DNA from: Stutzerimonas stutzeri
GTDB taxonomy: Bacteria > Pseudomonadota > Gammaproteobacteria > Pseudomonadales > Pseudomonadaceae
Direction: 5' to 3'
Assembly (NCBI RefSeq): GCF_024448715.1
Contig: NZ_JAMOHZ010000006.1
Span: forward strand, 124,001-188,000
DNA: 64,000 bases
In this document: piece by piece, positions 44,047 to 56,737 of the stretch
How positions within the stretch are numbered: the first letter of the stretch is position 1
Layout of the letters: each line of letters begins with the position of its first letter
Notes under the pieces: generated by a model
Database searches by the model: none
What the model saw: only the letters and a program-made list of their open reading frames with translations
Told to the model about the DNA's origin: nothing
Program-made: the position numbers and the translations under genes

Positions 44047-45456
44047 ATGCGCTACATCAGTACCCGTGGCCAGGCGCCCGCCCTGAATTTTGAAGACGTG
44101 CTGCTCGCCGGGCTGGCCAGCGACGGCGGTCTCTACGTACCGGAAAACCTGCCACGCTTCACTGTCGAGGAAATCGCATCGTGGTCGGGTCTGCCGTATC
44201 ACGAACTGGCATTCAAGGTGATGCGGCCGTTCGTGACCGGCAGTATCCCGGACGCCGATTTCAAGCAGATTCTCGAAGAGACCTACGGTGTTTTCGCGCA
44301 TAACGCAGTCGCGCCCCTGCGTCAGCTGAACGGCAACGAGTGGGTCCTGGAGCTGTTTCATGGCCCGACCCTGGCGTTCAAGGATTTCGCCCTGCAGCTG
44401 CTCGGACGCTTGCTCGATTACGTACTGGCGAAGCGCGGGGAGCGCGTGGTCATCATCGGTGCGACCTCAGGCGATACCGGCTCGGCGGCGATCGAAGGCT
44501 GCCGCCGCTGCGACAACGTCGATATCTTCATTCTTCACCCGCACAACCGTGTTTCTGAAGTGCAGCGTCGTCAGATGACGACTATTTTCGGCGACAACAT
44601 CCATAACATCGCAATCGAAGGCAACTTCGATGATTGCCAAGAGATGGTCAAGGATAGCTTCGCCGACCAGGGCTTCCTCAAAGGCACTCGTCTGGTAGCG
44701 GTGAACTCGATCAACTGGGCACGGATCATGGCCCAGATCGTTTACTACTTCCATGCGGCGCTGCAGCTAGGTGGTCCGGCACGCTCCGTGGCGTTCTCTG
44801 TTCCGACAGGTAATTTCGGCGACATCTTTGCCGGTTATCTGGCGCGCAATATGGGGCTGCCGATCAGTCAACTGGTGGTCGCGACCAACCGCAACGACAT
44901 CCTGCATCGTTTCATGAGTGGCAACCGCTACGACAAGGACACCCTGCATCCTTCGCTGTCGCCCTCCATGGATATCATGGTGTCGTCCAACTTCGAGCGC
45001 CTGCTGTTCGATCTGCACGGTCGCAACGGCGCGGCGGTGGGCGAGCTGATGAGTTCCTTCAAGGCTACCGGCAAGCTGTCGGTCGAAGAGGAACGCTGGA
45101 CCGAGGCCCGCAAGCTGTTCGATTCGCTGGCCGTGGACGACGAACAGACTTGCAAGACCATCGCCCAGGTATTCGATACGACCGGCGAGCTGCTCGATCC
45201 ACATACCGCCATCGGTGTCTACGCCGCGCGCGAATGCCGCCGCAGCCTGTCAACGCCGATGGTGACACTGGGCACCGCACATCCGGTGAAATTCCCTGAG
45301 GCGGTCGAGAAGGCTGGCGTTGGCAAGGCGCTTGAGCTTCCGAGCCATCTTGCCGATTTGTTCGAGCGGCCGGAGCGCTGCACGGTGCTGGCCAACGACC
45401 TCAAGGCCATGCAAGCCTTTGTCGGCGAGCACGGCAATCGCGGCAAGCCGCTGTAA
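44047..45456 (+). CDS. thrC: threonine synthase
   Basis: ThrC converts phosphohomoserine to threonine using PLP. The 469 residues begin MRYISTRGQAPALNFEDVLLAGLASDGGLYVPE. The PLP-binding Lys is in HGPTLAFKDFALQLLGRLL, and GATSGDTGSAAIEG binds phosphate. The spacing after hom and the shared pathway suggest a hom-thrC operon. No clear terminator follows; 191 bases separate it from the convergent GntR gene. Confidence 0.97.
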   Translation: MRYISTRGQAPALNFEDVLLAGLASDGGLYVPENLPRFTVEEIASWSGLPYHELAFKVMRPFVTGSIPDADFKQILEETYGVFAHNAVAPLRQLNGNEWVLELFHGPTLAFKDFALQLLGRLLDYVLAKRGERVVIIGATSGDTGSAAIEGCRRCDNVDIFILHPHNRVSEVQRRQMTTIFGDNIHNIAIEGNFDDCQEMVKDSFADQGFLKGTRLVAVNSINWARIMAQIVYYFHAALQLGGPARSVAFSVPTGNFGDIFAGYLARNMGLPISQLVVATNRNDILHRFMSGNRYDKDTLHPSLSPSMDIMVSSNFERLLFDLHGRNGAAVGELMSSFKATGKLSVEEERWTEARKLFDSLAVDDEQTCKTIAQVFDTTGELLDPHTAIGVYAARECRRSLSTPMVTLGTAHPVKFPEAVEKAGVGKALELPSHLADLFERPERCTVLANDLKAMQAFVGEHGNRGKPL

Positions 45457-45647: not shown

Positions 45648-46307
45648 TCAGTCCGCGACGATTACTCCCGCTAGATTGACCGCTTCCAGCTTGTGGCTGA
45701 GGTGTCCTCTGAGGATGCTGCCCAAGCGCATCCCGTCACGATCCCGTAGTGCATCGATCATTTCCTCGTGGTCGTTCACCGCTTTGCGCCAAAAGTCTTC
45801 GTTCATTTCCATCGTGTAGCGGATCCTCTTCACCCGCTGGCTGAGGTTGTTGTACATCTCCAGCAGGATCGGGTTTCCAGAAGCCAGCAAAATCCTTTCA
45901 TGTATCTGCTGGTTGGCTTGGAAATAAGCCTGCAGGTCCTTGCGCTCGTAGTAGTCGATCATTTTTTGGTGAAGCTCGCAAAGGGCTGCCAGCTCTTCGT
46001 CGTTCAGGCGACAGCAGGCGGCTTCGCCGGCCAGCCCTTCCAGGGCCGCCATGACATCGTAGGTATGTTTCACATCGCTCAGAGACAGGCGGCTCACGCG
46101 CGCTCCCCGATTCGGCAGAATTTCTACCAATCCTTCTGAGGTAAGAACCTTCAGTGCCTCGCGAAGCGGCGTTCTGGAAATGCCGAACGTCTCGCAAAGC
46201 TGTTTCTCTGAAATCTTTTCGCCTGCTACCAGCGAGCCGTGCTCAATTAATTCACGAATTCGGTTTGCAGCTTCCTGATACAGAATCTTGTGTTGGATTT
46301 TTTCCAA
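45648..46307 (-). CDS. GntR-family (FadR/FCD subgroup) transcriptional regulator
   Basis: This 219-residue regulator has an N-terminal winged helix (AANRIRELIEHGSLVAGEKISEKQLCETFGISRTPLREALKVLTSEGLVE) and a C-terminal FCD ligand-binding domain (about 80-205; MAALEGLAGEAACCRLNDEELAALCELHQKM, Asp/His metal-site residues in QQIHERILLASGN). The start is a TTG at 46307, with AGGA about ten bases upstream. It is divergent from the GlcG-like/TRAP/CoA-transferase cluster and is therefore its probable regulator. The ligand is likely the transported acid or its CoA product, but this is inference. Confidence 0.9.
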   Translation of the reverse strand: MEKIQHKILYQEAANRIRELIEHGSLVAGEKISEKQLCETFGISRTPLREALKVLTSEGLVEILPNRGARVSRLSLSDVKHTYDVMAALEGLAGEAACCRLNDEELAALCELHQKMIDYYERKDLQAYFQANQQIHERILLASGNPILLEMYNNLSQRVKRIRYTMEMNEDFWRKAVNDHEEMIDALRDRDGMRLGSILRGHLSHKLEAVNLAGVIVAD

Positions 46308-46384
46308 GGGAGCTTATTCCTGATAAGGCACACCGTTAGCTGCATCACGTCCATTGTTGATATCAGTGAAAGGTCTGCTAGCGT

Positions 46385-46401
46385 TTGAATTAAGAATACA
46401 A
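46385..46401. promoter_or_regulatory. candidate operator for the GntR/FCD regulator
   Basis: TTGAATT-AAG-AATACAA is a 17-base near-palindrome (7-bp arms, one mismatch) in the AT-rich divergent region between the regulator and the GlcG-like gene, a usual place and size for an FCD-regulator site. Confidence 0.4.
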
Positions 46402-46547
46402 AATAGGCGAAAAGTGCGACAGAAGAAAAAAGTGGAACACAAAAGGTAGCGTGCATATGCCAGGTCAGAACTTGGCTCCGTGCCGTTGCCTCAGTACTCG
46501 TTTTGATCAGTTCGCCTGGCTCTGCCGGGCCCATCAAAGGAAATAAC

Positions 46548-47009
46548 ATGGCTGGCAAGGTTTATCGTTCGAGCGTAGTCATATCACGAGCAAAAGCCCG
46601 GCAAATCATCGATGCTGCGTTCGCGGAGGCTAGAGCCAAGGAGATGGAACCGCTGACCCTATTCGTTATGGATGCGGGCGGCAACCTCATCGCGGCCGAA
46701 CGCGAAGATGGCTGTGCCCCGTTGCGCTTTCCGGTTGCCAGGGGCAAAGCCTTCGCCGCGCTGGGTAACGGCGTATCCAGCCGCACGGTCGGCGAGCGAA
46801 ACGAATCGCGTCCGGCTTTTCTGGCCTCTGTGGCAGCGGCGTCAGGCGGGCACTTCGTGCCCGTACCGGGCGGCGTACTGATTCTCTCGAACAATGACGA
46901 AGTGATCGGCGCCGTCGGGGCTAGCGGCGCATCCTCCGATGAGGACGAGCAAGTAGCCATCCTGGGTATAGAAGCTGCGGGGTTACGGGCCGGTATCGTT
47001 CCAGCCTGA
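46548..47009 (+). CDS. GlcG/HbpS-family haem-binding-like protein
   Basis: From MAGKVYRSSVVISRAKARQIID at 46548 (AAAGGAAATAAC upstream) it has 153 residues and the GlcG/HbpS fold: ARAKEMEPLTLFVMDAGGNLIAAEREDG, PVARGKAFAALGNGVSSRTVGER, GGVLILSNNDEVIGAVGASGASSDEDEQVA. Members include GlcG in glycolate oxidase operons, HbpS haem-binding sensors and PduO C-terminal domains. No signal peptide is seen, so it is likely cytosolic. It is the first gene after the divergent regulator and is separated from dctP by 449 bases. Its role in the cluster is unknown. Confidence 0.88.
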   Translation: MAGKVYRSSVVISRAKARQIIDAAFAEARAKEMEPLTLFVMDAGGNLIAAEREDGCAPLRFPVARGKAFAALGNGVSSRTVGERNESRPAFLASVAAASGGHFVPVPGGVLILSNNDEVIGAVGASGASSDEDEQVAILGIEAAGLRAGIVPA

Positions 47010-47458
47010 CGCCCATCTCCAGCGCTAATGGCGGCCGGCGCTGCTGGTCGCCTCTCAATGCTCCGGCTCTTCATGACCATGATCGCTTTCGGCTGGCGAT
47101 TAGTGTCAGGTATGGGCGCTCATTTCATTTGCGGCCCGTTATGTTCTAACGTCTGCGCCGCTAATAATTCTTCCTGAACCAATCCTAGCCAGGACCGACG
47201 AGCCCTTTGCCGACTTCCTGCGCTCCGCCTTGTCCGGCGTAAGGGATGCTCATGGCTGTTTTTCTTACCTCATTTCTGGCGTACCGCAAAAAGCTGGTCT
47301 AACGTCTGAATCGGGTTATGAATAATGAATTCATTTTTGTTCCCAGCGTGCGTAGCCGGTTTAGCCGCCGCCGGCCTTGCAGTCAGAGCGATGGGTCCGT
47401 CCTGACTGTAAAGATGGTACTGCGGTACGCCTCAATAAAAACAAGAGTGGAGGTCAGC
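47010..47458 (+). other. long leader/intergenic region ahead of dctP
   Basis: These 449 bases hold no supported gene; the open dctP frame upstream of 47459 lacks a signal-peptide start or ribosome-binding site. An 11-base direct repeat, TCTAACGTCTG, occurs at 47145-47155 and 47298-47308, and a perfect ATGAATTCAT dyad lies near 47328-47337. Either could be a regulatory site. The Crc-type motif is listed separately. Confidence 0.45.
47434..47444 (+). promoter_or_regulatory. candidate Crc/Hfq CA-motif ahead of dctP
   Basis: AATAAAAACAA contains two overlapping matches to AANAANAA (47434-47441 and 47437-47444), five bases before the GGAGG of dctP. It suggests catabolite repression of the transporter. 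Confidence 0.5.
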
Positions 47459-48436
47459 ATGAAAATATTGAAAACAGCTTTGATCGCATCCCTGTTCGGT
47501 CTAGCCACATCAGCAGTCCAGGCGGCCGAACTCCAGATCAAATTCGGCCACGTGGGCGGACCGGGATCACTGTTCGAAATCACAGCCAATAAATTCGCCG
47601 AGACCGTTAACGAAAAGCTCACGGGCAAGGCCAAGGTCGTGATCTACGGCTCCAGCCAGCTGGGCAGCGATTCTCAGATGCTTAACAAGCTCAAGCTGGG
47701 TTCGCTGGATCTGGCTCTGCCATCGACGGTGATGAGCAGCGTGGCGCCGGAGTTCTCCTTGTTCGAAATGCCGTACCTGATCACCGATCGCGATCATATG
47801 AAGCGTGTTCGAGACGAGCTGGTGCGCGACGTGATGTACAAGACCGCCGAAGACAAGGGGTACCGGATCATTGGCGTGTGGGAAAACGGCTTCCGGCAAA
47901 TCACCAACAACTCCCGGCCGATCGTCGTGCCGGAGGATCTCGAAGGGCTCAAGCTGCGCACGCCCAACGGCATATGGCGTGTCGAGATGTTCAAGAGCTA
48001 CGGCGCTAGCCCGGCTCCGATGGCACTCTCCGAAGCCTTTGTCGCGCTGCAGACTGGCGCCATGGACGGTCAGGAAAACCCCTTGGTGCAGATTTATTCC
48101 CAGCGCTTTCACGAAGTGCAGAAATACCTCTCCATGTCCAACCACGTCTATACCCCTGCGTTCGTTCTCGCTGGTGCCAGTTGGAAGCGTTTTCCAGAGG
48201 AAGTGAGGAAGGTGCTGAGCGACGCTGCTGTAGAAGCAGAGGCCTATGCGCTGGAACAAGGGGCGCAGCTCGATGAAAGCCTCGTCAAGAAAATGGAGGA
48301 GGCAGGCATGGAAGTGAACAAGGTTGATCAACAAGCCTTCATCGACGGATCCAAGGCCATCTACGCGAAATTCGCTGAAGAAGTCGAAGGTGGGCAGGAA
48401 ATGCTCGACGAGGTCGAACAGCTTCGCCAGATGTAA
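47459..48436 (+). CDS. TRAP transporter periplasmic solute-binding protein (DctP family)
   Basis: The 325-residue precursor has the signal peptide MKILKTALIASLFGLATSAVQA followed by AELQIKFGHVGGPGSLFEITANKFAETV. DctP features include LGSDSQMLNKLKLGSLDLALPS, ENGFRQITNNSRPI, EGLKLRTPNGIWRVEMFKSYGASPAPMALSEAFVALQTGAMDGQENP with the conserved ligand-carboxylate Arg (LKLRTP) and Asn (QENP). TRAP systems of this kind usually carry C4-dicarboxylates, 2-oxo or 2-hydroxy acids and sugar acids. The ATG at 47459 follows GTGGAGG. It is the first of three transporter genes; the actual ligand is unknown. Confidence 0.93.
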   Translation: MKILKTALIASLFGLATSAVQAAELQIKFGHVGGPGSLFEITANKFAETVNEKLTGKAKVVIYGSSQLGSDSQMLNKLKLGSLDLALPSTVMSSVAPEFSLFEMPYLITDRDHMKRVRDELVRDVMYKTAEDKGYRIIGVWENGFRQITNNSRPIVVPEDLEGLKLRTPNGIWRVEMFKSYGASPAPMALSEAFVALQTGAMDGQENPLVQIYSQRFHEVQKYLSMSNHVYTPAFVLAGASWKRFPEEVRKVLSDAAVEAEAYALEQGAQLDESLVKKMEEAGMEVNKVDQQAFIDGSKAIYAKFAEEVEGGQEMLDEVEQLRQM

Positions 48437-48510
48437 CCGACTTCGTGGCTGCAGATCGCATTCTGACTTACGCCTGAGCACGTGGTGCTCAGGTCGACCG
48501 GAGAGAGCTG

Positions 48511-49044
48511 ATGGATTCCTTTACCGCTTTCAGAAAGGGTTTTTCCAAACTTCTGGAAATCATCGTAGTGGCCAACGTAGTTGCTTTGACGTTGGTCGTT
48601 ACAGTCGGCTTCGCATCGCGGCTGGCCGGTTCGCCGTTCAGCTGGTACGACGAGGTGGCGTCCGTCGGCCTGGCCTGGCTCACCTATTACGGCGCGGCGT
48701 TGGCCGCGGCGAAGGGCGCCCACATCGGTTGCCCTAGCGTAATCAATTACTTCTCTCCAGCGCTGCGCTTGCCGATCGCTCTGGTCGCGGAGGCGATCAC
48801 GATCGGCTTCTTCGTGCTGCTGGCCTATACCGGCATGCAGGTCGTGCTCATCCTGGAAGGCTCCTCACTGGTCAGCCTCACCAACGTCTCGCTGCAGTTG
48901 ACGCAATCGGTGCTGCCGATCGGGTCGGTACTTTTCATCATCGCTGAGATCTTGCGATTGCCTGAGGTGATCAAGAGCGCGAAAGGCGATGGGTTCGTCG
49001 ATCACGAACTGGAAGAAGTGGGCGTCAAGCCGGTGAAGGCATGA
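48511..49044 (+). CDS. TRAP transporter small permease (DctQ family)
   Basis: This 177-residue protein has four membrane helices (about 20-40, 55-75, 90-115, 130-150) and the DctQ marker SWYDEVASVGLAWLTYYGAALAAAKGAHIGCP. It starts at the ATG 48511 after GGAGAG, 74 bases after dctP, and is followed by the large permease. Confidence 0.92.
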   Translation: MDSFTAFRKGFSKLLEIIVVANVVALTLVVTVGFASRLAGSPFSWYDEVASVGLAWLTYYGAALAAAKGAHIGCPSVINYFSPALRLPIALVAEAITIGFFVLLAYTGMQVVLILEGSSLVSLTNVSLQLTQSVLPIGSVLFIIAEILRLPEVIKSAKGDGFVDHELEEVGVKPVKA

Positions 49045-49095
49045 CCAGGACATTTCAGAGCGAGCGCTTGCTACGGCGCTCGGGAGAATAACAAG

Positions 49096-50382
49096 ATGAT
49101 AATCCTTTACATGTTTCTGGGGCTGATAGCCCTCATCCTGATCAATGTTCCTGTCGCCATATCGCTAGGCATCGTCGGTGCGGTTGCAATCTTTTCCAGC
49201 TATGGGGCGCTGGCCCTTCCCAACATCGGAATGGTGATGTACGACGGGACGACCAGCTTTCCGCTTATTGCCATCCCGCTTTTCATTCTCGCTGGCGCGA
49301 TCATGAATGCCTCGAGCATTTCCCGGCGGCTGATCGATCTGGCCTCGGCGATGCTCGGATTCATCAAGGGTGGGTTGTCGATGGTGACCATCGGTGCCTC
49401 GATCTTCTTCGCGGAGATTTCCGGTTCGGCGGTGGCGGGCGTATCGGCTATCGGCAGCATCATGATCCCGGCGATGACTCAGAAGGGATATTCGAAGGAA
49501 TTCGCGGCGGCATTGTCATCCTCGGCAGCCAGCCTGGCGATCATCCTGCCACCATCGATTCCGATGATTCTCTACGCCGTGATGTCTGGGGAGTCGGTGG
49601 TGAAGATGTTCGTCGCCGGCATCTTCCCAGGCTTGCTCGGTGCCATGGGGCTGGCGGGTATGTGCTATTACCTGGCCAGGAAGAACAACTTTCCATCCGA
49701 AGGGGCCTTCCAGACCAAGCGGTTGTGGGAAGCGTTCAAGGGAGCAATCTGGGCGCTGTCGATTCCGGTGATCATCCTTGGCGGAATCTTTGGCGGAATC
49801 GTCACGGCGACCGAAGGAGCGGCGTTAGCGGTGGTGGTGGCGATCTTCATCAGTGCCTTTGTCTATCGCGAGTTCACGCTGCGCACGTTCTACAAGGCGT
49901 GCCTCGATGCCGGCGTGCAGACTGCGGTAGTGATGCTGCTGGTGGCGAGCTCCGCCGTGGTTGGCCTCTACCTGACTGAAACGCAGCTGCCGCAGCAGCT
50001 CGCCAGCTCCATCAGCGAGTGGACCAGCAACAAGTACGTGATCCTGGCGCTGCTTAACATCATCTTCCTGATTCTCGGCGTCTTCCTGCATTCTGCGGCC
50101 GCGATCATCTTGGTCGTTCCAATCGTTCTGCCGCTGGTACTAGCGGTAGGCATCGATCCGATTCATTTCGGTCTGATCGTCACGCTCAACCTGGCCATTG
50201 GTCAGCAAACTCCGCCGGTTGCCAGTGTGCTGATCGCGTCCTGTTCGATCGCCAAGTCCGATATCTGGGCCACCACCCGTACCAATCTGTGGTTCCTTGG
50301 GGTGCTCTTCGCGATTCTGCTGATCAACACCTACATCCCGGCCATTGCCATGGTTCTGGTGAATTTCGTTTACGGCGCGTGA
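49096..50382 (+). CDS. TRAP transporter large permease (DctM family)
   Basis: This 428-residue protein is made of about twelve hydrophobic segments and has the DctM family motifs FPLIAIPLFILAGAIMN, AEISGSAVAGVSAIGSIMIPAM, LSSSAASLAIILPPSIPMILYAV and NLAIGQQTPPVASVL. It completes the DctPQM sodium-coupled importer. The crotonase-fold gene begins 26 bases after its stop. Confidence 0.95.
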   Translation: MIILYMFLGLIALILINVPVAISLGIVGAVAIFSSYGALALPNIGMVMYDGTTSFPLIAIPLFILAGAIMNASSISRRLIDLASAMLGFIKGGLSMVTIGASIFFAEISGSAVAGVSAIGSIMIPAMTQKGYSKEFAAALSSSAASLAIILPPSIPMILYAVMSGESVVKMFVAGIFPGLLGAMGLAGMCYYLARKNNFPSEGAFQTKRLWEAFKGAIWALSIPVIILGGIFGGIVTATEGAALAVVVAIFISAFVYREFTLRTFYKACLDAGVQTAVVMLLVASSAVVGLYLTETQLPQQLASSISEWTSNKYVILALLNIIFLILGVFLHSAAAIILVVPIVLPLVLAVGIDPIHFGLIVTLNLAIGQQTPPVASVLIASCSIAKSDIWATTRTNLWFLGVLFAILLINTYIPAIAMVLVNFVYGA

Positions 50383-50408
50383 GCGGCATCGAGCAAGAGG
50401 AGACGAAG

Positions 50409-51203
50409 ATGAGTGATATGTCTCAAGGGCAGGTCGACTGTCGCATCGAGCAGGGCGTCGCCTGGGTTGGCTTCAACCGGCCGGATAGCCGCAATGCGAT
50501 GACCTGGACCATGTACGACTCGCTGGAGCGCTTGTGCAGCGAGCTGGAGGCCGATCCCGCGGTCGTAGCGGTGGTGTTTCACGGTTGTGGTGGCAAGGCC
50601 TTCGTTGCTGGCACTGACATCAAGCAATTCGCTGATTTCGAAGGCGGTGAAGCGGGCGTGAACTATGAGCGGCGCATCGACAGCGTGATCGCGGGGCTGG
50701 AAAACCTGCACAAGCCGACCATCGCGATGCTCGAGGGATTCTGTGTCGGTGGCGGCGCGGCCATCGCGCTGGCCTGCGACTTCCGCTATTGCACGCCGTC
50801 GTTGAAGTTTGGCGTACCGATCGCCGAGACACTTGGCAACTGCCTCTCGGTGACAAACGTGTCCCGCCTCATGGATCTGCTCGGCGTACCGCGGACGAAG
50901 GAAGTACTGATGACAGCAAAACTGATCGAGGCGCCCGAGGCGCTATCGGCGGGCCTGGTCAGCGCAGTGTTCGAGCCCGACGCTATCCGTCAGGAGGTCA
51001 GTCGCAAAGCGCAGGCGTTTGCCGGTCGAGCGCCGCTGACCGTGCTGGCCACCAAAGAGGTAATCAACCGGGTGCTGGAGCACCGCCGTACTTCTGCAGA
51101 CTCCAGCGATGACTGGATACGGACCTGTTACGGCAGCCGCGATTTCAAGGCCGCCGTCGACAAGTTCGTCAGTAAGACCTCGTTCGAATGGACCGGTGAG
51201 TAA
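50409..51203 (+). CDS. crotonase-fold protein lacking both classical hydratase glutamates
   Basis: This 264-residue protein of the enoyl-CoA hydratase/isomerase superfamily starts at the ATG 50409 after GAGGAGACGAAG. Oxyanion-hole elements are present: GTDIKQF (about residue 65) and EGFCVGGGAAIALACDFRY (about 110-128). Where rat mitochondrial hydratase has Glu144 (GGGCELAMMCD) this protein has Ala (GGGAAIALACD), and where it has Glu164 (FGQPE) this one reads FGVPI, continuing AETLGNCLS. A simple syn-hydration is therefore unlikely; isomerase, dehydratase, thioesterase, decarboxylase or C-C lyase chemistry is possible. The next gene is a CaiB/BaiF transferase, recalling CaiB-CaiD partnerships. 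Confidence 0.88.
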   Translation: MSDMSQGQVDCRIEQGVAWVGFNRPDSRNAMTWTMYDSLERLCSELEADPAVVAVVFHGCGGKAFVAGTDIKQFADFEGGEAGVNYERRIDSVIAGLENLHKPTIAMLEGFCVGGGAAIALACDFRYCTPSLKFGVPIAETLGNCLSVTNVSRLMDLLGVPRTKEVLMTAKLIEAPEALSAGLVSAVFEPDAIRQEVSRKAQAFAGRAPLTVLATKEVINRVLEHRRTSADSSDDWIRTCYGSRDFKAAVDKFVSKTSFEWTGE

Positions 51204-51236
51204 CGTCTCGTCGATCCCAGTGCTGGAGAGCCAAGC

Positions 51237-52424
51237 ATGCTTCCGCTAAGCAACGTAAAAATTCTGGATATCTCGCAAATCATGGCGGGCCCTTACTGCA
51301 CGATGGTGCTGGGCGACCTCGGAGCCGAGGTCATCAAGGTGGAAAAATCCAATGGTGGTGACGACAGTCGGCAAATGGGTCCCTATGTAAACGGCGAGTC
51401 CACATGTTTTTTTCAGATCAACCGAAACAAGAAGAGCATTTCGCTGAATCTGAAGGATCAACGGGCCAGGGATATTTTCTATCGACTGGCCGCTGATGCC
51501 GACGTCATCGTCGAGAATTACCGGCCGGGCGTGACGCAATCGCTGGAGATCGACTACGAGACGATCCGTGCAATCAATCCAGGGATTATCTATTGCTCGA
51601 TCTCCGGCTATGGCCAGACCGGCCCTTACAGCAATAAGGGTGGCTTCGACCTCGTCGCCCAAGGCATGAGCGGCCTGATGTCGATGACTGGCGAACCCGG
51701 CAAGCGTCCGCTGAAGACCGGTATCGCCGTCTATGACATCGGGGCTGGCCTTACCGCGATCTATTCGATTCTCGCCGCTTACATCCACAAGCAGAACACC
51801 GGGGAAGGGCAGCACATCGATATCGCCATCACCGAGTGCGGGCTGCCTTGGTTCGCCTGGGAAGCGGCGGCGTATTTCGCCAACGGTACCGTGCCGCAGC
51901 CCACGGGATCGCGTCACCGCATCTCGGCGCCATATCAGGCCGTCAGGACTCAGGACGGCTACCTGATGCTCGGCTGCGCCAATCAGCGAACCTGGGAGCG
52001 TCTCTGTCGCGATGTGATTGCGCGTGAGGATCTGCTTGGCGACGAGCGCTTTGTCACTAACAGCGACCGTGCACGCAACGTCGAAACGCTCGAAAACATC
52101 CTCGAAGAGATTCTGTCCCAGCAGCCCATGAAGCACTGGCTCGATCTGTGCGACACGGCCGGGGTACCGGCAGGGCCGATCAACGACTTCGCCCAGGCCA
52201 TGCACGACGAACATTATTTGGCGCGCGGCATGGTTCAGGAAGTCAGACATCCGGTGATAGGCAGCATGAAGACGATCGGCTTTCCCGCCAAGTTCTCCCG
52301 AACGCCTTTGGAAATCCGTCGACCGGCTCCGTTGTTCGCCGAGCACACCGATGAGGTGCTACACGGAATCGGCATGACCGATGAGGATATCGGCAGTCTG
52401 CGAAGTGAGGGCTGCATCCGCTGA
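51237..52424 (+). CDS. CaiB/BaiF-family (class III) CoA-transferase
   Basis: This 395-residue protein, LSNVKILDISQIMAGPYCTMVLGDLGAEVIKVE, has the full class III CoA-transferase pattern: DVIVENYRPGV, SISGYGQTGPYSNKGGFDLVAQGMSGLM, the catalytic Asp167 in TGIAVYDIGAGLTAIY, and the C-terminal VPAGPINDFAQAMHDEH. These enzymes move CoA between carboxylic acids, for example carnitine, formyl/oxalate, itaconate, malate, glutarate. The donor and acceptor cannot be read from sequence. It starts 33 bases after the crotonase gene; 70 AT-rich bases follow before the aminotransferase. Confidence 0.93.
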   Translation: MLPLSNVKILDISQIMAGPYCTMVLGDLGAEVIKVEKSNGGDDSRQMGPYVNGESTCFFQINRNKKSISLNLKDQRARDIFYRLAADADVIVENYRPGVTQSLEIDYETIRAINPGIIYCSISGYGQTGPYSNKGGFDLVAQGMSGLMSMTGEPGKRPLKTGIAVYDIGAGLTAIYSILAAYIHKQNTGEGQHIDIAITECGLPWFAWEAAAYFANGTVPQPTGSRHRISAPYQAVRTQDGYLMLGCANQRTWERLCRDVIAREDLLGDERFVTNSDRARNVETLENILEEILSQQPMKHWLDLCDTAGVPAGPINDFAQAMHDEHYLARGMVQEVRHPVIGSMKTIGFPAKFSRTPLEIRRPAPLFAEHTDEVLHGIGMTDEDIGSLRSEGCIR

Positions 52425-52470
52425 TAGAAAATCTATTTTTCGTTAGTTATGAATTCAAAACTCAAAATAC

Positions 52471-52478
52471 AAAAACAA
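52471..52478 (+). promoter_or_regulatory. candidate Crc/Hfq CA-motif ahead of the class V aminotransferase
   Basis: AAAAACAA matches AANAANAA, six bases before GGAG. The leader AAAAACAAGA is shared base for base with the dctP leader. The spacer 52425-52494 is unusually AT-rich and contains AATTCAA (52452-52458) and AATACAA (52466-52472), which resemble the half-sites at 46385-46401. Confidence 0.5.
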
Positions 52479-52494
52479 GATTTGGAGAATCGCT

Positions 52495-53703
52495 ATGTTG
52501 AAGCTCGATTTTCATCCGTCCGGCCGTCATTTTCTGCAGATCCCCGGACCTTCACCGGTTCCGGACCGCATCTTGCGGGCTATGAGCCTGCCCACTATTG
52601 ATCATCGTGGACCGGAGTTCGGTGCATTGGGTCGCGAACTGCTAAGCAAGATCCGTCAGGTGTTCAAGACCCAGCAGCCCGTGGTGATCTACCCCGCATC
52701 CGGTACCGGGGCTTGGGAGGCGGCGTTGGTCAATACGCTGTCGGCTGGCGACCGGGTATTGATGTTCGAAACCGGTCACTTCGCCACGCTGTGGGAAAAG
52801 ATGGCCCGACGCTTGGGACTCGAGCCCGAATTCATCGGGCTACCGGGCTACGAAGGCTGGCGACGTGGTGTGCAGGCCGACATGATCGAGCGGCGCCTGA
52901 AAGAGGACAGCAGCCACACCATCAAGGCTGTCTGTGTGGTGCACAACGAGACGTCCACCGGCGTGACCAGCGACATCGCGGCAGTGCGTCGTGCCATCGA
53001 TGCGGTCAAGCATCCGGCGCTGCTGCTGGTAGATACCATTTCCGGCCTGGCCTGCGCTGATTATCAGCACGACGCCTGGGGCGTGGACGTCACTATCTCC
53101 GGCTCGCAGAAGGGCCTGATGCTGCCGCCTGGTATCAGCTTCAACGCGGTATCTGAGAAGGCAATCGAGGTCAGCCGCAGCGCGCAGCTGCCGAAGAGCT
53201 TCTGGGCCTGGGACGAAATACTCGAACTAAACCGCAGCGGCTACTGGCCATACACACCCAACACCAACCTGTTGTACGGGCTGAACGAAGCGCTCGACAT
53301 GCTGCTGCAAGAGGGGCTCGATCATGTCTTTGCACGCCACCAGCGTTGGGCTGCCGGCGTGCGTACGGCCGTCGCGTGCTGGGGGCTGGAGGTGCAGTGT
53401 CAAGATGCAAGCGTCTTCTCACCAGTGCTGACCGGTGTGGTAATGCCGGAAGGCATCGATGCCGACGAGGTTCGCAGCCTGATCTACCGCCGTTTCGACC
53501 TTTCGTTGGGCACCGGGCTGGGCAAGGCGAGGGGCAAGATGTTCCGCATCGGGCACCTGGGTGATTGCAACGATCTCACCCTGATCGCCACCCTCGGCGG
53601 TTGCGAGGCCGGCCTCAAGATGTCCGGTGTGTCGCTCAAGGGGAGCGGTGTGCTCGCCGCACTGGATTACTTCGCAGCGAACCCGCTGGACTACGCGCGT
53701 TGA
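52495..53703 (+). CDS. class V PLP aminotransferase (serine/alanine/aspartate-glyoxylate type)
   Basis: The 402-residue protein starts MLKLDFHPSGRHFLQIPGPSPVPDRIL, the family IPGP motif, followed by TIDHRGPEF. PLP site: the phosphate loop YPASGTGAWEAAL, Asp180 in LLLVDTISGL and Lys206 in ISGSQKGLMLPPG. The end GTGLGKARGKMFRIGHLGDCNDL is typical of serine-glyoxylate aminotransferases and of BhcA-type aspartate-glyoxylate enzymes. The likely reaction is amination of glyoxylate or another small 2-oxo acid. It precedes the FAD/Fe-S dehydrogenase by 34 bases, so a 2-hydroxyacid to 2-oxoacid to amino-acid sequence is plausible. The exact substrates are unknown. Confidence 0.9.
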   Translation: MLKLDFHPSGRHFLQIPGPSPVPDRILRAMSLPTIDHRGPEFGALGRELLSKIRQVFKTQQPVVIYPASGTGAWEAALVNTLSAGDRVLMFETGHFATLWEKMARRLGLEPEFIGLPGYEGWRRGVQADMIERRLKEDSSHTIKAVCVVHNETSTGVTSDIAAVRRAIDAVKHPALLLVDTISGLACADYQHDAWGVDVTISGSQKGLMLPPGISFNAVSEKAIEVSRSAQLPKSFWAWDEILELNRSGYWPYTPNTNLLYGLNEALDMLLQEGLDHVFARHQRWAAGVRTAVACWGLEVQCQDASVFSPVLTGVVMPEGIDADEVRSLIYRRFDLSLGTGLGKARGKMFRIGHLGDCNDLTLIATLGGCEAGLKMSGVSLKGSGVLAALDYFAANPLDYAR

Positions 53704-53737
53704 CATCCCCCTTTGACGGCAGACATGGGAGGTCCTG

Positions 53738-56737
53738 ATGACTTCGTTTACCGAACCCAGAATACCGGCGAGCAAGGTGTCGTCAGAACGTGCTTCGGCG
53801 CTGGCAGCGCGGCTACAGCGCGAAATTGCCGGCGAGGTAATGTTCGATTCGGCGTCACGTGGCCGCTACGCAACTGACGCTTCGATCTATCAGATCACGC
53901 CGGTCGGTGTGGTAATCCCGCGTCACCAGCATGACCTGCAGGTAGCACTGGATATCGCCCGAGATGCCAAGGTTCCGCTGCTGGCGCGCGGTGGCGGCAC
54001 CAGCCAGTGCGGCCAGACCGTGGGTGACGCGCTGATCGTCGATACCAGCCGCTGGCTGAATCAGATCGTCGAGTTCGACCCAGACAACCTGACGGTAGTG
54101 GTCGAGCCGGGCGTAGTGCTCGATGACCTGAACCGCTGGCTCAAGCCGCACGGGCTGTGGTTTCCGGTGGACGTGTCGACGTCTGCCCAGTGCACCCTGG
54201 GTGGTATGGCAGGCAACAATTCCTGCGGCTCGCGTTCAATTCGCTACGGCAACATGGTGCACAACGTCTTGGGCATCGATGCGTTGCTGGCCGATGGCAG
54301 CGAAGCGCGCTTCGGTCTGCTCCATGAGCTGGCACCGGGTGACCGGGTACGCCAGCTCGCCCGCGAGGTGCAGCGTATCGCCGAGCGCGAACATGCCAAT
54401 ATCCGTGAGCACTACCCGAAGGTGCTGCGCCGCGTGGGTGGCTACAACCTCGATCTGTTCGACTGTCAGAACCCGCTCCCCTACGACTCGGGCGGCCAGG
54501 TCAACCTGGCCCACCTGCTGATCGGTTCGGAAGGTACGCTCGCGGTCACCCGGCGGATCAAGCTCAAGCTGGCGCCGCTGCCCCAGCACAAGGTGCTGGC
54601 GGTGGTGAATTTCCCGACCTTCTATCAGGCCATGGACCTGACCCAGCACATCGTCACGCTCGACCCGACGGCGGTCGAACTGGTCGACCGCACGATGATC
54701 GATCTGTCGATGGAGAATCCGTCCTTCAAGCCGGTGATCGAGAAGGCGCTGATTGGCTATCCCGAGGCATTGCTGCTGGTCGAGTTCGCGGGCGAGGAAG
54801 TCGCCGCCCTGCATGAGCAACTCGGCAGGCTGAGCGAGCTGATGGCCGATCTCGGCCTGCCCGGTAGCGTGGTCAAGATGACCGAGTCTGCAGAGCAGAC
54901 AGCGTTATGGAACGTACGCAAGGCCGGCCTGAACATCATGATGAGCATGAAGGGCGACGGCAAACCGGTGTCCTTCATCGAAGACTGCGCGGTGCCGCTG
55001 GAGCATCTGGCCGAATACACCGCCAAGCTCACCGAGGTATTTCACAAGCACGGCACCGAAGGCACCTGGTATGCCCACGCAAGTGTCGGCACTCTGCACG
55101 TACGGCCAATCCTGGACATGCGCCGTGATGGCGCGCAAAAGATGCGCGCCATCGCCGAAGAGGCGTCCGCGCTAGTCCGCGCCTACAAGGGGGCGTTTTC
55201 TGGCGAGCATGGGGATGGCCTGTGCCGCGGAGAATGGGTGGCATGGCAGTTCGGCCCGCAACTCAATGCCGCATTCAAGGAGATCAAGCAGCTATTCGAT
55301 CCGGAAAACCTGCTCAATCCGGGCAAGATCGTCGATACCCCGCGCATGGACGATCATAGCTACTTCCGTTTCCCCAAGACCTATCAACCGATTCCAGTAA
55401 CGCCGGTGCTGGACTGGTCGGAATGGAACGTGCTGCGCGATCCGTTGACCGGCAAGCAGAGCGCGCCCGGAAGTGGCGCCGATCCAACTGGTGGGCTCAT
55501 CGGTGCCGTCGAGATGTGCAACAACAACGGCCACTGTCGCAAGTTCGACGCCGGCACCATGTGCCCCAGCTTCCGGGCGACGCGCAACGAGCAGCATCTG
55601 ACCCGCGGTCGCGCTAACACGCTGCGGCTGGCGTTATCCGGGCAGCTAGGTCCCGATGGATTGGGCAGCGAAGACGTCAAGGCCGCGCTCGATCTGTGTG
55701 TCTCCTGCAAGGGCTGCAGGCGGGAATGCCCGACTGGCGTCGACATGGCGAAGATGAAAATCGAGGCCCGCGCCGCCTGGGCGAAAAATCATCCGATGCC
55801 GCTACGTGAGCGGATGGTGGCTGAAATGCCACGCTATGCGCCCTACGCTCGCCATCTGGCCGGCGTGACAGGCCTCGTCGAGCGCGTGCCGCTGCTGTCG
55901 CAATGGGTCAAGCGCACATTGGGACTGGCCGGGCAGCGTGCGCTGCCGCGCTTCGCAGGCAACTTTCTGGCGACCGCGCCAGCAAGCCGTTCGACACATA
56001 CGCGGGAAGTCCTGCTGTTCGTCGATACCTTCAACAACTACATGGAACCGGAGAATGCGCGAGCGGCCTGTCGCGTACTCGAGGCGGCCGGGTATCGGGT
56101 CCATTTCAATCAGGCGCCATCAGAGCGACCGTTGTGCTGCGGGCGCACTTACCTGGCGTCGGGTCAGGTCGACAAGGCCAAGGCGGAAGCCCGGCGCACG
56201 CTCGACCACCTGCTGCCGTTCGTCGAGCGCGGCGTGAGCATCGTCGGGCTTGAGCCTTCGTGTTTGCTGACCATGCGCGACGAGTTTCTGCGCTACGGTT
56301 ACGGCGAGCAGGCCAAGGCGTTGTCGAAGGCGTCCTTCCTGTTCGAAGAGTTTCTGGTCAGGGAGCAGGCTGCAGGCAATCTGCAGCTCAAGCTCAGGGC
56401 GCTAGACGAACCACGGGCTCTATTGCACGGTCATTGTCATCAAAAGGCATTCGATGCGCTGCGGCCGGTGGAACAGGTGCTGCGTTGGATACCGGATCTG
56501 GAGGTCAGAACGGTCGAAACCTCATGCTGTGGCATGGCTGGAAGCTTTGGCTACGAGCGCGAACACTACGATGCTTCGATGCAGATGGCCGAGCTGGCGC
56601 TGCTACCTGCGGTGCGTAAAGCCGAAGCCGAAGATCTGGTGGTCGCCGATGGTACCAGTTGCCGCCACCAGATCTACGACGGAGCCCAGCGTGAAGCTTT
56701 GCATGTGGCGAGGGTATTGGAGCGGGCGTTGGCCTGA
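53738..56737 (+). CDS. FAD/Fe-S D-2-hydroxyacid dehydrogenase (YdiJ / GlcD-GlcF fusion type)
   Basis: This 999-residue fused enzyme has an N-terminal PCMH FAD domain (about 45-240; VPLLARGGGTSQCGQTVGDALIVD, GGMAGNNSCGSRSIRYGNMVHNVLGID), an FAD-oxidase C domain (about 250-540; LLIGSEGTLAVTRRIKLKL, GAFSGEHGDGLCRGEW), a ferredoxin-like part (CNNNGHCRKF, LDLCVSCKGCRRECPTGVDM near 652) and a C-terminal CCG domain pair (PLCCGRTYLASGQ, LEPSCLL, HGHCHQKAF, SCCGMAGSFGYE). The architecture matches YdiJ, a D-2-hydroxyglutarate/D-lactate-type dehydrogenase feeding the quinone pool. It is the last gene of the TRAP/CoA-transferase cluster. The substrate is inferred only as a D-2-hydroxy acid. Confidence 0.93.
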   Translation: MTSFTEPRIPASKVSSERASALAARLQREIAGEVMFDSASRGRYATDASIYQITPVGVVIPRHQHDLQVALDIARDAKVPLLARGGGTSQCGQTVGDALIVDTSRWLNQIVEFDPDNLTVVVEPGVVLDDLNRWLKPHGLWFPVDVSTSAQCTLGGMAGNNSCGSRSIRYGNMVHNVLGIDALLADGSEARFGLLHELAPGDRVRQLAREVQRIAEREHANIREHYPKVLRRVGGYNLDLFDCQNPLPYDSGGQVNLAHLLIGSEGTLAVTRRIKLKLAPLPQHKVLAVVNFPTFYQAMDLTQHIVTLDPTAVELVDRTMIDLSMENPSFKPVIEKALIGYPEALLLVEFAGEEVAALHEQLGRLSELMADLGLPGSVVKMTESAEQTALWNVRKAGLNIMMSMKGDGKPVSFIEDCAVPLEHLAEYTAKLTEVFHKHGTEGTWYAHASVGTLHVRPILDMRRDGAQKMRAIAEEASALVRAYKGAFSGEHGDGLCRGEWVAWQFGPQLNAAFKEIKQLFDPENLLNPGKIVDTPRMDDHSYFRFPKTYQPIPVTPVLDWSEWNVLRDPLTGKQSAPGSGADPTGGLIGAVEMCNNNGHCRKFDAGTMCPSFRATRNEQHLTRGRANTLRLALSGQLGPDGLGSEDVKAALDLCVSCKGCRRECPTGVDMAKMKIEARAAWAKNHPMPLRERMVAEMPRYAPYARHLAGVTGLVERVPLLSQWVKRTLGLAGQRALPRFAGNFLATAPASRSTHTREVLLFVDTFNNYMEPENARAACRVLEAAGYRVHFNQAPSERPLCCGRTYLASGQVDKAKAEARRTLDHLLPFVERGVSIVGLEPSCLLTMRDEFLRYGYGEQAKALSKASFLFEEFLVREQAAGNLQLKLRALDEPRALLHGHCHQKAFDALRPVEQVLRWIPDLEVRTVETSCCGMAGSFGYEREHYDASMQMAELALLPAVRKAEAEDLVVADGTSCRHQIYDGAQREALHVARVLERALA

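Follow-up and report, generated by a model that had tools for sequence, protein, structure and literature searches.

A two-module gene island of Stutzerimonas stutzeri with a candidate role in feeding a small hydroxy-diacid into glyoxylate metabolism

Gene content of the island and families of its enzymes

Investigation of a window of 64,000 nucleotides from Stutzerimonas stutzeri (contig NZ_JAMOHZ010000006.1 of assembly GCF_024448715.1, positions 124,001 to 188,000) revealed a set of nine genes of about 11 kb, flanked by thrC and rnt, which constitutes an island comprising two separable modules, A and B. Module A consists of an aminotransferase and a YdiJ-like dehydrogenase, usually with a GntR regulator, and is widespread; module B, which is optional, consists of a tripartite ATP-independent periplasmic (TRAP) importer, a crotonase and a CaiB-type coenzyme A (CoA) transferase, often with a GlcG-like protein. 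The island may direct a small hydroxy-diacid to glyoxylate and glycine and, if this is true, it would represent an unrecognised entry of small hydroxy-acids, which are products of algae and sunlit organic matter, into glyoxylate metabolism, beside the glycolate and beta-hydroxyaspartate routes.

The set begins with a GntR/FCD regulator on the reverse strand (45648..46307; Pfam GntR and FCD, start called as TTG), from which eight genes on the forward strand diverge. These encode a GlcG/HbpS-like protein (46548..47009; Pfam HbpS-like, E 2.7e-28; NF007275, 43.5 bits against a cut-off of 246), the TRAP solute-binding protein DctP (47459..48436; TIGR00787, 238.9 bits, cut-off 175), the TRAP small permease DctQ (48511..49044; Pfam DctQ), the TRAP large permease DctM (49096..50382; TIGR00786, 395.1 bits, cut-off 268), an atypical crotonase of the PRK06144 subfamily (50409..51203; Pfam ECH_1; NF004796, 344.7 bits, cut-off 272), a class III (CaiB/BaiF) CoA-transferase (51237..52424; Pfam CoA_transf_3, 445 bits), a class V glyoxylate-type aminotransferase (52495..53703; Pfam Aminotran_5; NF045640 for the L-aspartate-glyoxylate aminotransferase BhcA, 434.9 bits, cut-off 650) and a YdiJ-like FAD/Fe-S D-2-hydroxyacid dehydrogenase of 999 residues (53738..56737) with GlcD-like and GlpC-like parts and the Pfam domains FAD_binding_4, FAD-oxidase_C, Fer4 and CCG. 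The open reading frames, strands and coordinates all match an earlier reading made from the sequence alone, which had described eight co-oriented genes behind a divergent FCD regulator between thrC and rnt; its statement that the spacers are short holds from dctP to the YdiJ-like gene, where intergenic gaps are 26–74 bp, but not for the stretch that separates glcG from dctP, which measures about 450 bp. The starts of the GlcG-like protein and the crotonase were revised to the ATG at 46548 and the ATG at 50409, respectively, and DctP probably starts at the ATG at 47459. All the enzymes are members of known families, and most score below the curated cut-off of a characterised member; DctP and DctM both exceed theirs, in agreement with the TRAP importer called previously.

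Regarding the CoA-transferase, D167 is invariant in 17 of 17 sequences, and an invariant Asp is the catalytic residue in class III CoA-transferases; with the CoA_transf_3 match, this upholds the class given in the sequence-only reading. The nearest PDB chain is a succinate-hydroxymethylglutarate CoA-transferase, and the protein scores below the cut-offs for the succinate-glutarate CoA-transferase (NF052585, 323.4 against 750 bits) and for the L-carnitine CoA-transferase CaiB (NF002914, 133.8 against 413 bits), the latter in keeping with the earlier statement that the carnitine pathway is not matched. In DctP, residues R111, R146, R167, R174, H31, H113 and H229 are invariant across 25 sequences, and its structural model, with a predicted local distance difference test (pLDDT) value of 79, matched many TRAP receptors and did not settle the substrate. 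The dicarboxylate relatives of CaiB and the invariant Arg and His residues of DctP point weakly to a diacid substrate.

Glu144 and Glu164 are the two catalytic glutamates of enoyl-CoA hydratase, and decarboxylases without Glu144 exist within the crotonase superfamily. The window crotonase has Ile138 at the Glu144 position, where aligned hydratases show FGxPE, and Glu165 at the Glu164 position. Across 18 cluster crotonases, which fall into two subtypes (PRK06144, and another nearer to PRK06127 found in L127), the Glu144 position holds Ile in 17 and Ala in one, as befits an enzyme that had been described as unusual. At the Glu164 position, 11 (among them the window protein) have Glu, three Asp, three Arg and one Tyr. 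The window crotonase is unlikely to be an ordinary two-glutamate hydratase, because Glu144 is replaced in all 18 sequences and the Glu164 position varies, and it may work in a decarboxylase-like manner despite its score of 102.4 bits against the methylmalonyl-CoA decarboxylase YgfG (NF008506, cut-off 257). Its structural model has a pLDDT of 92.4, and the nearest solved structures, which have close Z scores and include LiuC and AUH, are those of hydratases, isomerases and a dehydratase.

The Stutzerimonas aminotransferases are 43–45% identical to the BhcA of Tateyamaria and belong to a clade separate from the BhcA and SgaA-like rows (Shimodaira–Hasegawa-like approximate likelihood ratio test, SH-aLRT, 100) in a tree for which 137 rows were reduced to 94 by dropping those with stops, those of less than 350 residues and then near-identical ones (at least 90%). 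The serine-cycle function of SgaA was considered and rejected for this enzyme, the relatives of about 48% identity forming another clade; these SgaA-like relatives adjoin, in some loci, malyl-CoA-lyase and ligase types (by eye). The YdiJ-like dehydrogenase scores 523.6 bits against NF049975, the E. coli-type YdiJ D-2-hydroxyglutarate dehydrogenase (cut-off 1350), and 206 bits against TIGR00387 (GlcD, cut-off 567.9), and is thus below both cut-offs.

Insertion site, distribution and modularity

A crotonase match was detected in eight of the 36 congeners searched, in one of these (G004) on a short contig. The whole set is present at thrC/rnt with the order kept in six other Stutzerimonas (L017–L021 and L023) and, with the same order, at a different genomic site in G033 (L022), so the gene-neighbourhood check put forward with the sequence-only reading recovered the same set. 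The distance between thrC and rnt, measured as an alignment gap, is at most 225 bp in 26 of the 29 congeners without the cluster at that site, the other three (L342, L346, L347) yielding no short gap. Because thrC and rnt are neighbours in these 26 congeners, the 11-kb set is an island that was gained or lost at a single site.

The aminotransferase clade was matched in 46 of 398 sampled proteobacterial genomes (E <= 1e-130), and the analysis turned up no assigned substrate. Among 129 loci picked by aminotransferase match (one locus set being the best 80 of 591 matches, truncated contigs included, and at least two genomes present twice, as L022/L134 and L105/L168), the YdiJ-like gene was detected in 106, a GntR homologue of more than 35% identity in 107 and both in 95. 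A CaiB of more than 40% identity is present in 33 of the 129 loci, and the crotonase adjoins it on the same strand in 31 of these (none was found in L119 and L121); a crotonase-like match without a CaiB above this threshold occurs in 10 loci. CaiB accompanies the window-type TRAP in 23 of 27 loci, compared with 6 of 29 for transporters of the MFS-ACS family, and other module A loci carry tripartite tricarboxylate or sodium-symporter systems instead. In the Salinicola-like genome G710, GntR-GlcG-TRAP-crotonase-CaiB lies about 40 kb from aminotransferase-YdiJ-symporter. Joined modules with other gene orders are also present in alphaproteobacteria (e.g., Limimaricola) and in a Pelagibacter-sized genome of 1.2 Mb. 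The single linear pathway encoded by one operon that had been envisaged was not supported, given the two separable modules, the three operator-like sites described below and the limited number of loci with CaiB. CaiB and the crotonase together form a portable two-gene module.

Regulator and operator-like palindrome

A palindrome, TGAAT-N5-ATTCA, was detected upstream of glcG (between it and gntR), of dctP and of the aminotransferase gene. The operator-like site O1 (TGAATTAAGAATACA; 46386..46400, forward strand) is an exact match to TGAATWWWGAATWCA, O2 (TGAATAATGAATTCA; 47319..47333, forward strand) is likewise an exact match to the motif, and O3, before the aminotransferase gene (52443..52464, strand not assigned), consists of overlapping matches with two mismatches and one mismatch. 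In the window, five matches with up to two mismatches were found against 0.44 expected; one of the five lies inside thrC (44084–44098, two mismatches) and is probably due to chance. The island may be transcribed as more than one transcript, since operator-like sites precede glcG, dctP and the aminotransferase gene; a sigma-70 scan found no promoter-like site.

In 16 other Stutzerimonas/Halomonadaceae loci, which had contributed to deriving the motif and four of which were labelled by hand from coordinates, a match with up to two mismatches precedes glcG in 16, dctP in 16 and the aminotransferase gene in 14. The degenerate exact palindrome pattern occurs twice in the window's own 4.6-Mb genome, both times inside the island, and of the 30 exact matches counted across 11 genomes that carry the cluster, 21 lie within the island or a split module B, compared with 4 for the reversed control; the sites of G710 are at the place of GntR-GlcG-TRAP-crotonase-CaiB. 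At the nine off-island places with exact matches no close relatives of island genes were found (best DctP 24%, best GntR 28% identity). No palindrome match occurs in 22 of 28 congeners that lack the cluster, and the other six hold 10 matches.

Regarding other lineages, a scan of 116 loci, from which the Stutzerimonas/Halomonadaceae loci and those with less than 100 bp upstream were left out, detected the motif (up to two mismatches) within 300 bp upstream of the aminotransferase gene in 58, compared with a mean of 1.5 and a maximum of 16 for 60 permuted patterns; in the same scan, matches lie upstream of YdiJ in 8 of 93 loci and of CaiB in 0 of 30. A longer exact form gave eight matches across 24 other clade-bearing genomes, all at the aminotransferase locus (in G549 about 1 kb away). 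The operator-like site so seems to belong widely to module A and, in the Stutzerimonas/Halomonadaceae group, to module B as well. The island is apparently under one dedicated GntR/FCD regulator, and we infer both the binding of this GntR protein to the palindromes and the sign of regulation; a reporter under the operator-like sequence could reveal the inducer. A lack of co-expression, named with the sequence-only reading as a possible objection, is made less likely by the operator-like sites that the genes share.

Glyoxylate-related neighbours, proposed pathway and its alternatives

The neighbours of module A relatives at other loci were named by eye (MatA, MatB in L131/L127, UraD, HIUase, PuuD, Gcl, Hyi, GlxR, LldP and GlcC to GlcG), with the exception of genes named in plasmid records, on open reading frames from a simple gene finder and with plasmid gene tables that are incomplete. 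In Halomonadaceae, glcD adjoins the joined island in seven of nine loci, with glcC between them in six; in L058 glcC is present and the stretch that overlaps it, L218, continues with glcDEFG; no glc gene is seen in L139. On the island's other side, a lactate/glycolate-type permease is present in seven of the nine loci and UraD in six. The order in Tateyamaria omphalii is TRAP ... MatB, GntR-YdiJ-aminotransferase-TRAP-heme-binding protein, one further gene and a complete bhcDCBA, and that in two Pseudomonas loci (L149, L169) is aminotransferase-MFS-hydratase-gcl-hyi-glxR. Ureide genes surround the aminotransferase in Aminobacter and Defluviimonas, where no YdiJ-like gene is listed, and in Burkholderiaceae four loci (L102, L143, L154, L220) carry a gene for a BhcC-like DSD1 enzyme after the cluster. 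Glyoxylate appears to be the likeliest common metabolite, because genes adjoining module A at other loci relate to it time and again, and the glyoxylate-type aminotransferase of the sequence-only reading gains support from the same gene contexts.

A malonate link was also detected. Five fetched genomes of one alphaproteobacterial genus have MatA and MatB next to module A, and Tateyamaria has MatB there, in both cases without CaiB/crotonase. Genes for malonyl-CoA synthase/decarboxylase lie at 2447–5373 of L131, in L231, L232, L233 and L270, and at 256–1773 of L224 (Tateyamaria, synthase only). MatA/MatB and CaiB/crotonase are unrelated protein families. MatA/MatB are not among the window genes, but their activation and then decarboxylation of malonate resembles what is proposed here for CaiB and the crotonase, and the analogy suggests that the latter two parallel MatB and MatA, acting on another acid.

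Comparison with known systems shows partial likenesses. The island shares with the beta-hydroxyaspartate cycle (bhcABCD) a BhcA-related class V glyoxylate aminotransferase, which, however, falls below the BhcA cut-off and in a separate clade, and BhcB, BhcC and BhcD were not detected among the nine island proteins, to which that search was confined. The previous statement that this cycle is not matched therefore stands for the island genes but not for the surroundings of a module A relative, that of Tateyamaria, which a complete bhcABCD adjoins. With the glc operon (GlcCDEFG) the island has in common an FCD/GntR regulator, a GlcG-like protein and a GlcD-like FAD domain, whereas it differs in the long YdiJ-like dehydrogenase and in the addition of TRAP, CaiB and crotonase. 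The itaconate pathway consists of Ict, Ich and Ccl together with a TRAP system. The island resembles it in its TRAP importer and a CoA-transferase for a diacid, but neither a CitE-type lyase nor a MaoC-type hydratase is among the nine island proteins, and the absence of a CitE-type (S)-citramalyl-CoA lyase from the cluster agrees with the lack of an itaconate match reported before. In CaiB/CaiD (carnitine) and AcuN/AcuK (acrylate), a class III CoA-transferase is paired with a crotonase. The island likewise has such a pair and no CoA ligase, but its CaiB is below the carnitine cut-off and its crotonase lacks the hydratase Glu144 (for the AcuN/AcuK CoA-swap pair of Halomonas HTNK1, see PMC5651017). 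Searches of an open-access library that omits most subscription journals yielded no paper on the gene combination.

We tentatively propose, with a probability of about 0.45, that the two-module island uses CoA to decarboxylate or cleave a small hydroxy-diacid, giving glycolate or glyoxylate and then glycine; the substrate and every reaction are what we infer. The TRAP system of module B would import a small dianionic, probably hydroxylated, diacid, onto which CaiB would move CoA; the crotonase without Glu144 would decarboxylate or cleave the CoA ester of the diacid, and CaiB would then pass the CoA to the next substrate molecule, so that the route could do without ligase or thiolase. In module A, the YdiJ-like dehydrogenase would oxidise the 2-hydroxy acid released (glycolate or something close to it), and the class V aminotransferase would convert glyoxylate to glycine. 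The leading substrate option would be tartronate, with tartronyl-CoA giving glycolyl-CoA and CO2 and glycolate giving glyoxylate by oxidation; a close alternative would be tartrate, with tartryl-CoA giving glyoxylate and glycolyl-CoA, and for the crotonase a malyl-CoA-lyase activity was also weighed as a possibility. Doubtful when taken as a whole is the more specific version, a natural CoA-swap route shared by Proteobacteria of sea and soil, one with a Pelagibacter-sized genome among them, in which the Glu144-less crotonase would be a decarboxylase or C-C lyase acting on tartronyl- or tartryl-CoA and releasing glycolyl-CoA towards glyoxylate and glycine.

Several observations weigh against this proposal. 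The YdiJ-like dehydrogenase keeps the motif HxxxxxxHVRP, at a place where HPL stands in the glycolate oxidase 9qgz and HLN in D2HGDH; the motif suggests that the substrate carries a second acid group. The window's own genome carries a separate GlcD above the cut-off (580 bits), a full-length GlcD-like match was found in 28 of 28 genomes with the aminotransferase clade (440–559 bits, none above the cut-off), and a further glycolate oxidase would be superfluous; the canonical GlcD counts against glycolate as the sole substrate of the dehydrogenase. Glycolate alone as substrate was accordingly lowered as a candidate after GlcD-like proteins were found in every genome tested. With a Glu kept at the 164 position, single-Glu chemistry (that of an isomerase, perhaps of a hydratase) is possible for the window crotonase, and the retro-aldol reaction known for crotonases requires a Glu that is absent here. 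Some of the invariant DctP arginines are probably general TRAP residues. In 40 further loci of one alphaproteobacterial family, the YdiJ-like gene was detected in 24, GntR in 22 and CaiB in two at the thresholds used, and CaiB-crotonase pairs occur in stretches without module A, with other transporters and often with amidohydrolase-family proteins (L227, L271–L274, L277); one CaiB-crotonase stretch shows at its edge an annotated class V aminotransferase, its clade not assigned. Outside Stutzerimonas/Halomonadaceae no operator-like site was found before dctP (0 of 16) or glcG (0 of 7), and 58 of the 116 loci scanned have none before the aminotransferase gene. The neighbour evidence sits at other loci, in part in single lineages, the window set itself has no adjoining glyoxylate gene, and the proposal gives no role to the MhpD-like genes that stand near module A (in 16 and in 18 loci, one of which carries both).

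Some of these points are better accounted for by a route through tartrate and oxaloglycolate, in which the YdiJ-like enzyme would directly oxidise an R-configured 2-hydroxy-diacid ((R,R)- or meso-tartrate, or a D-malate-like acid), the aminotransferase would take hydroxypyruvate or oxaloglycolate, giving serine or hydroxyaspartate, instead of or besides glyoxylate, and CaiB and the crotonase would merely prepare another isomer. In its favour are the HVRP motif, the presence of GlcD in these genomes, the MFS-ACS transporters and MhpD-like genes adjoining module A, Hyi and GlxR in L149/L169, the BhcC-like DSD1 enzymes near the cluster and an annotated tartrate dehydrogenase about 5 kb beyond the cluster in Caballeronia M1242. 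The tartrate-dehydrogenase link is one locus, however, the cluster has neither a BhcB-like dehydratase nor a tartrate dehydratase, and the glc and ureide neighbours indicate C2 glyoxylate; this route appears unlikely. A comparably low likelihood is given to a scheme like AcuN/AcuK or CaiB/CaiD, in which CoA would be loaded onto an unsaturated diacid of the mesaconate type, the crotonase would turn the loaded diacid into an isomer or a 2-hydroxy-diacid, and this product, once freed, would undergo oxidation by the YdiJ-like enzyme and then amination. The paired CoA-swap architecture, the closeness of CaiB to mesaconate/glutarate transferases, the hydratases, dehydratases and isomerases among the nearest solved crotonase structures and the retained Glu165 argue for it, but Glu144 is replaced in all 18 cluster crotonases, seven of the 18 have no Glu at the Glu164 position, and the glyoxylate neighbours would be left without explanation.

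It is quite improbable that module A uses transported glycolate alone and that module B is an unrelated catabolic set merely joined to it. Such a reading is consistent with the separability of the modules and with the occurrence of CaiB-crotonase without module A, but the same operator-like sequence precedes both modules in Stutzerimonas/Halomonadaceae, and their joining is seen in gammaproteobacteria, alphaproteobacteria and the Pelagibacter-sized genome with differing gene orders. Very improbable is ether cleavage, in which a carboxymethyl (glycolyl) ether such as carboxymethoxysuccinate would be loaded with CoA and the crotonase would eliminate glycolate: the products, glycolate and fumaryl-CoA, would explain the handling of glycolate/glyoxylate without ligase or thiolase, but the wide spread of the genes favours a common natural acid.

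Regarding other gene contexts of module A, a different set with the same aminotransferase clade includes a different TRAP system and an amidase (L207, L194, L204, L206, L109, L176, L221, L228), with an MhpD/FAH-like protein in most and an Asp/Glu-racemase (EutA-like) protein in several. In the Pelagibacter-sized genome a PcaC-like gene of the carboxymuconolactone decarboxylase family ends at the YdiJ-like gene (L127, 5754–6125), and in an alphaproteobacterial locus (L125, 3432–6194) genes for MtnA, MtnP and a class II aldolase, assigned by eye to methylthioadenosine salvage, lie between TctC and TctB and adjoin module A.

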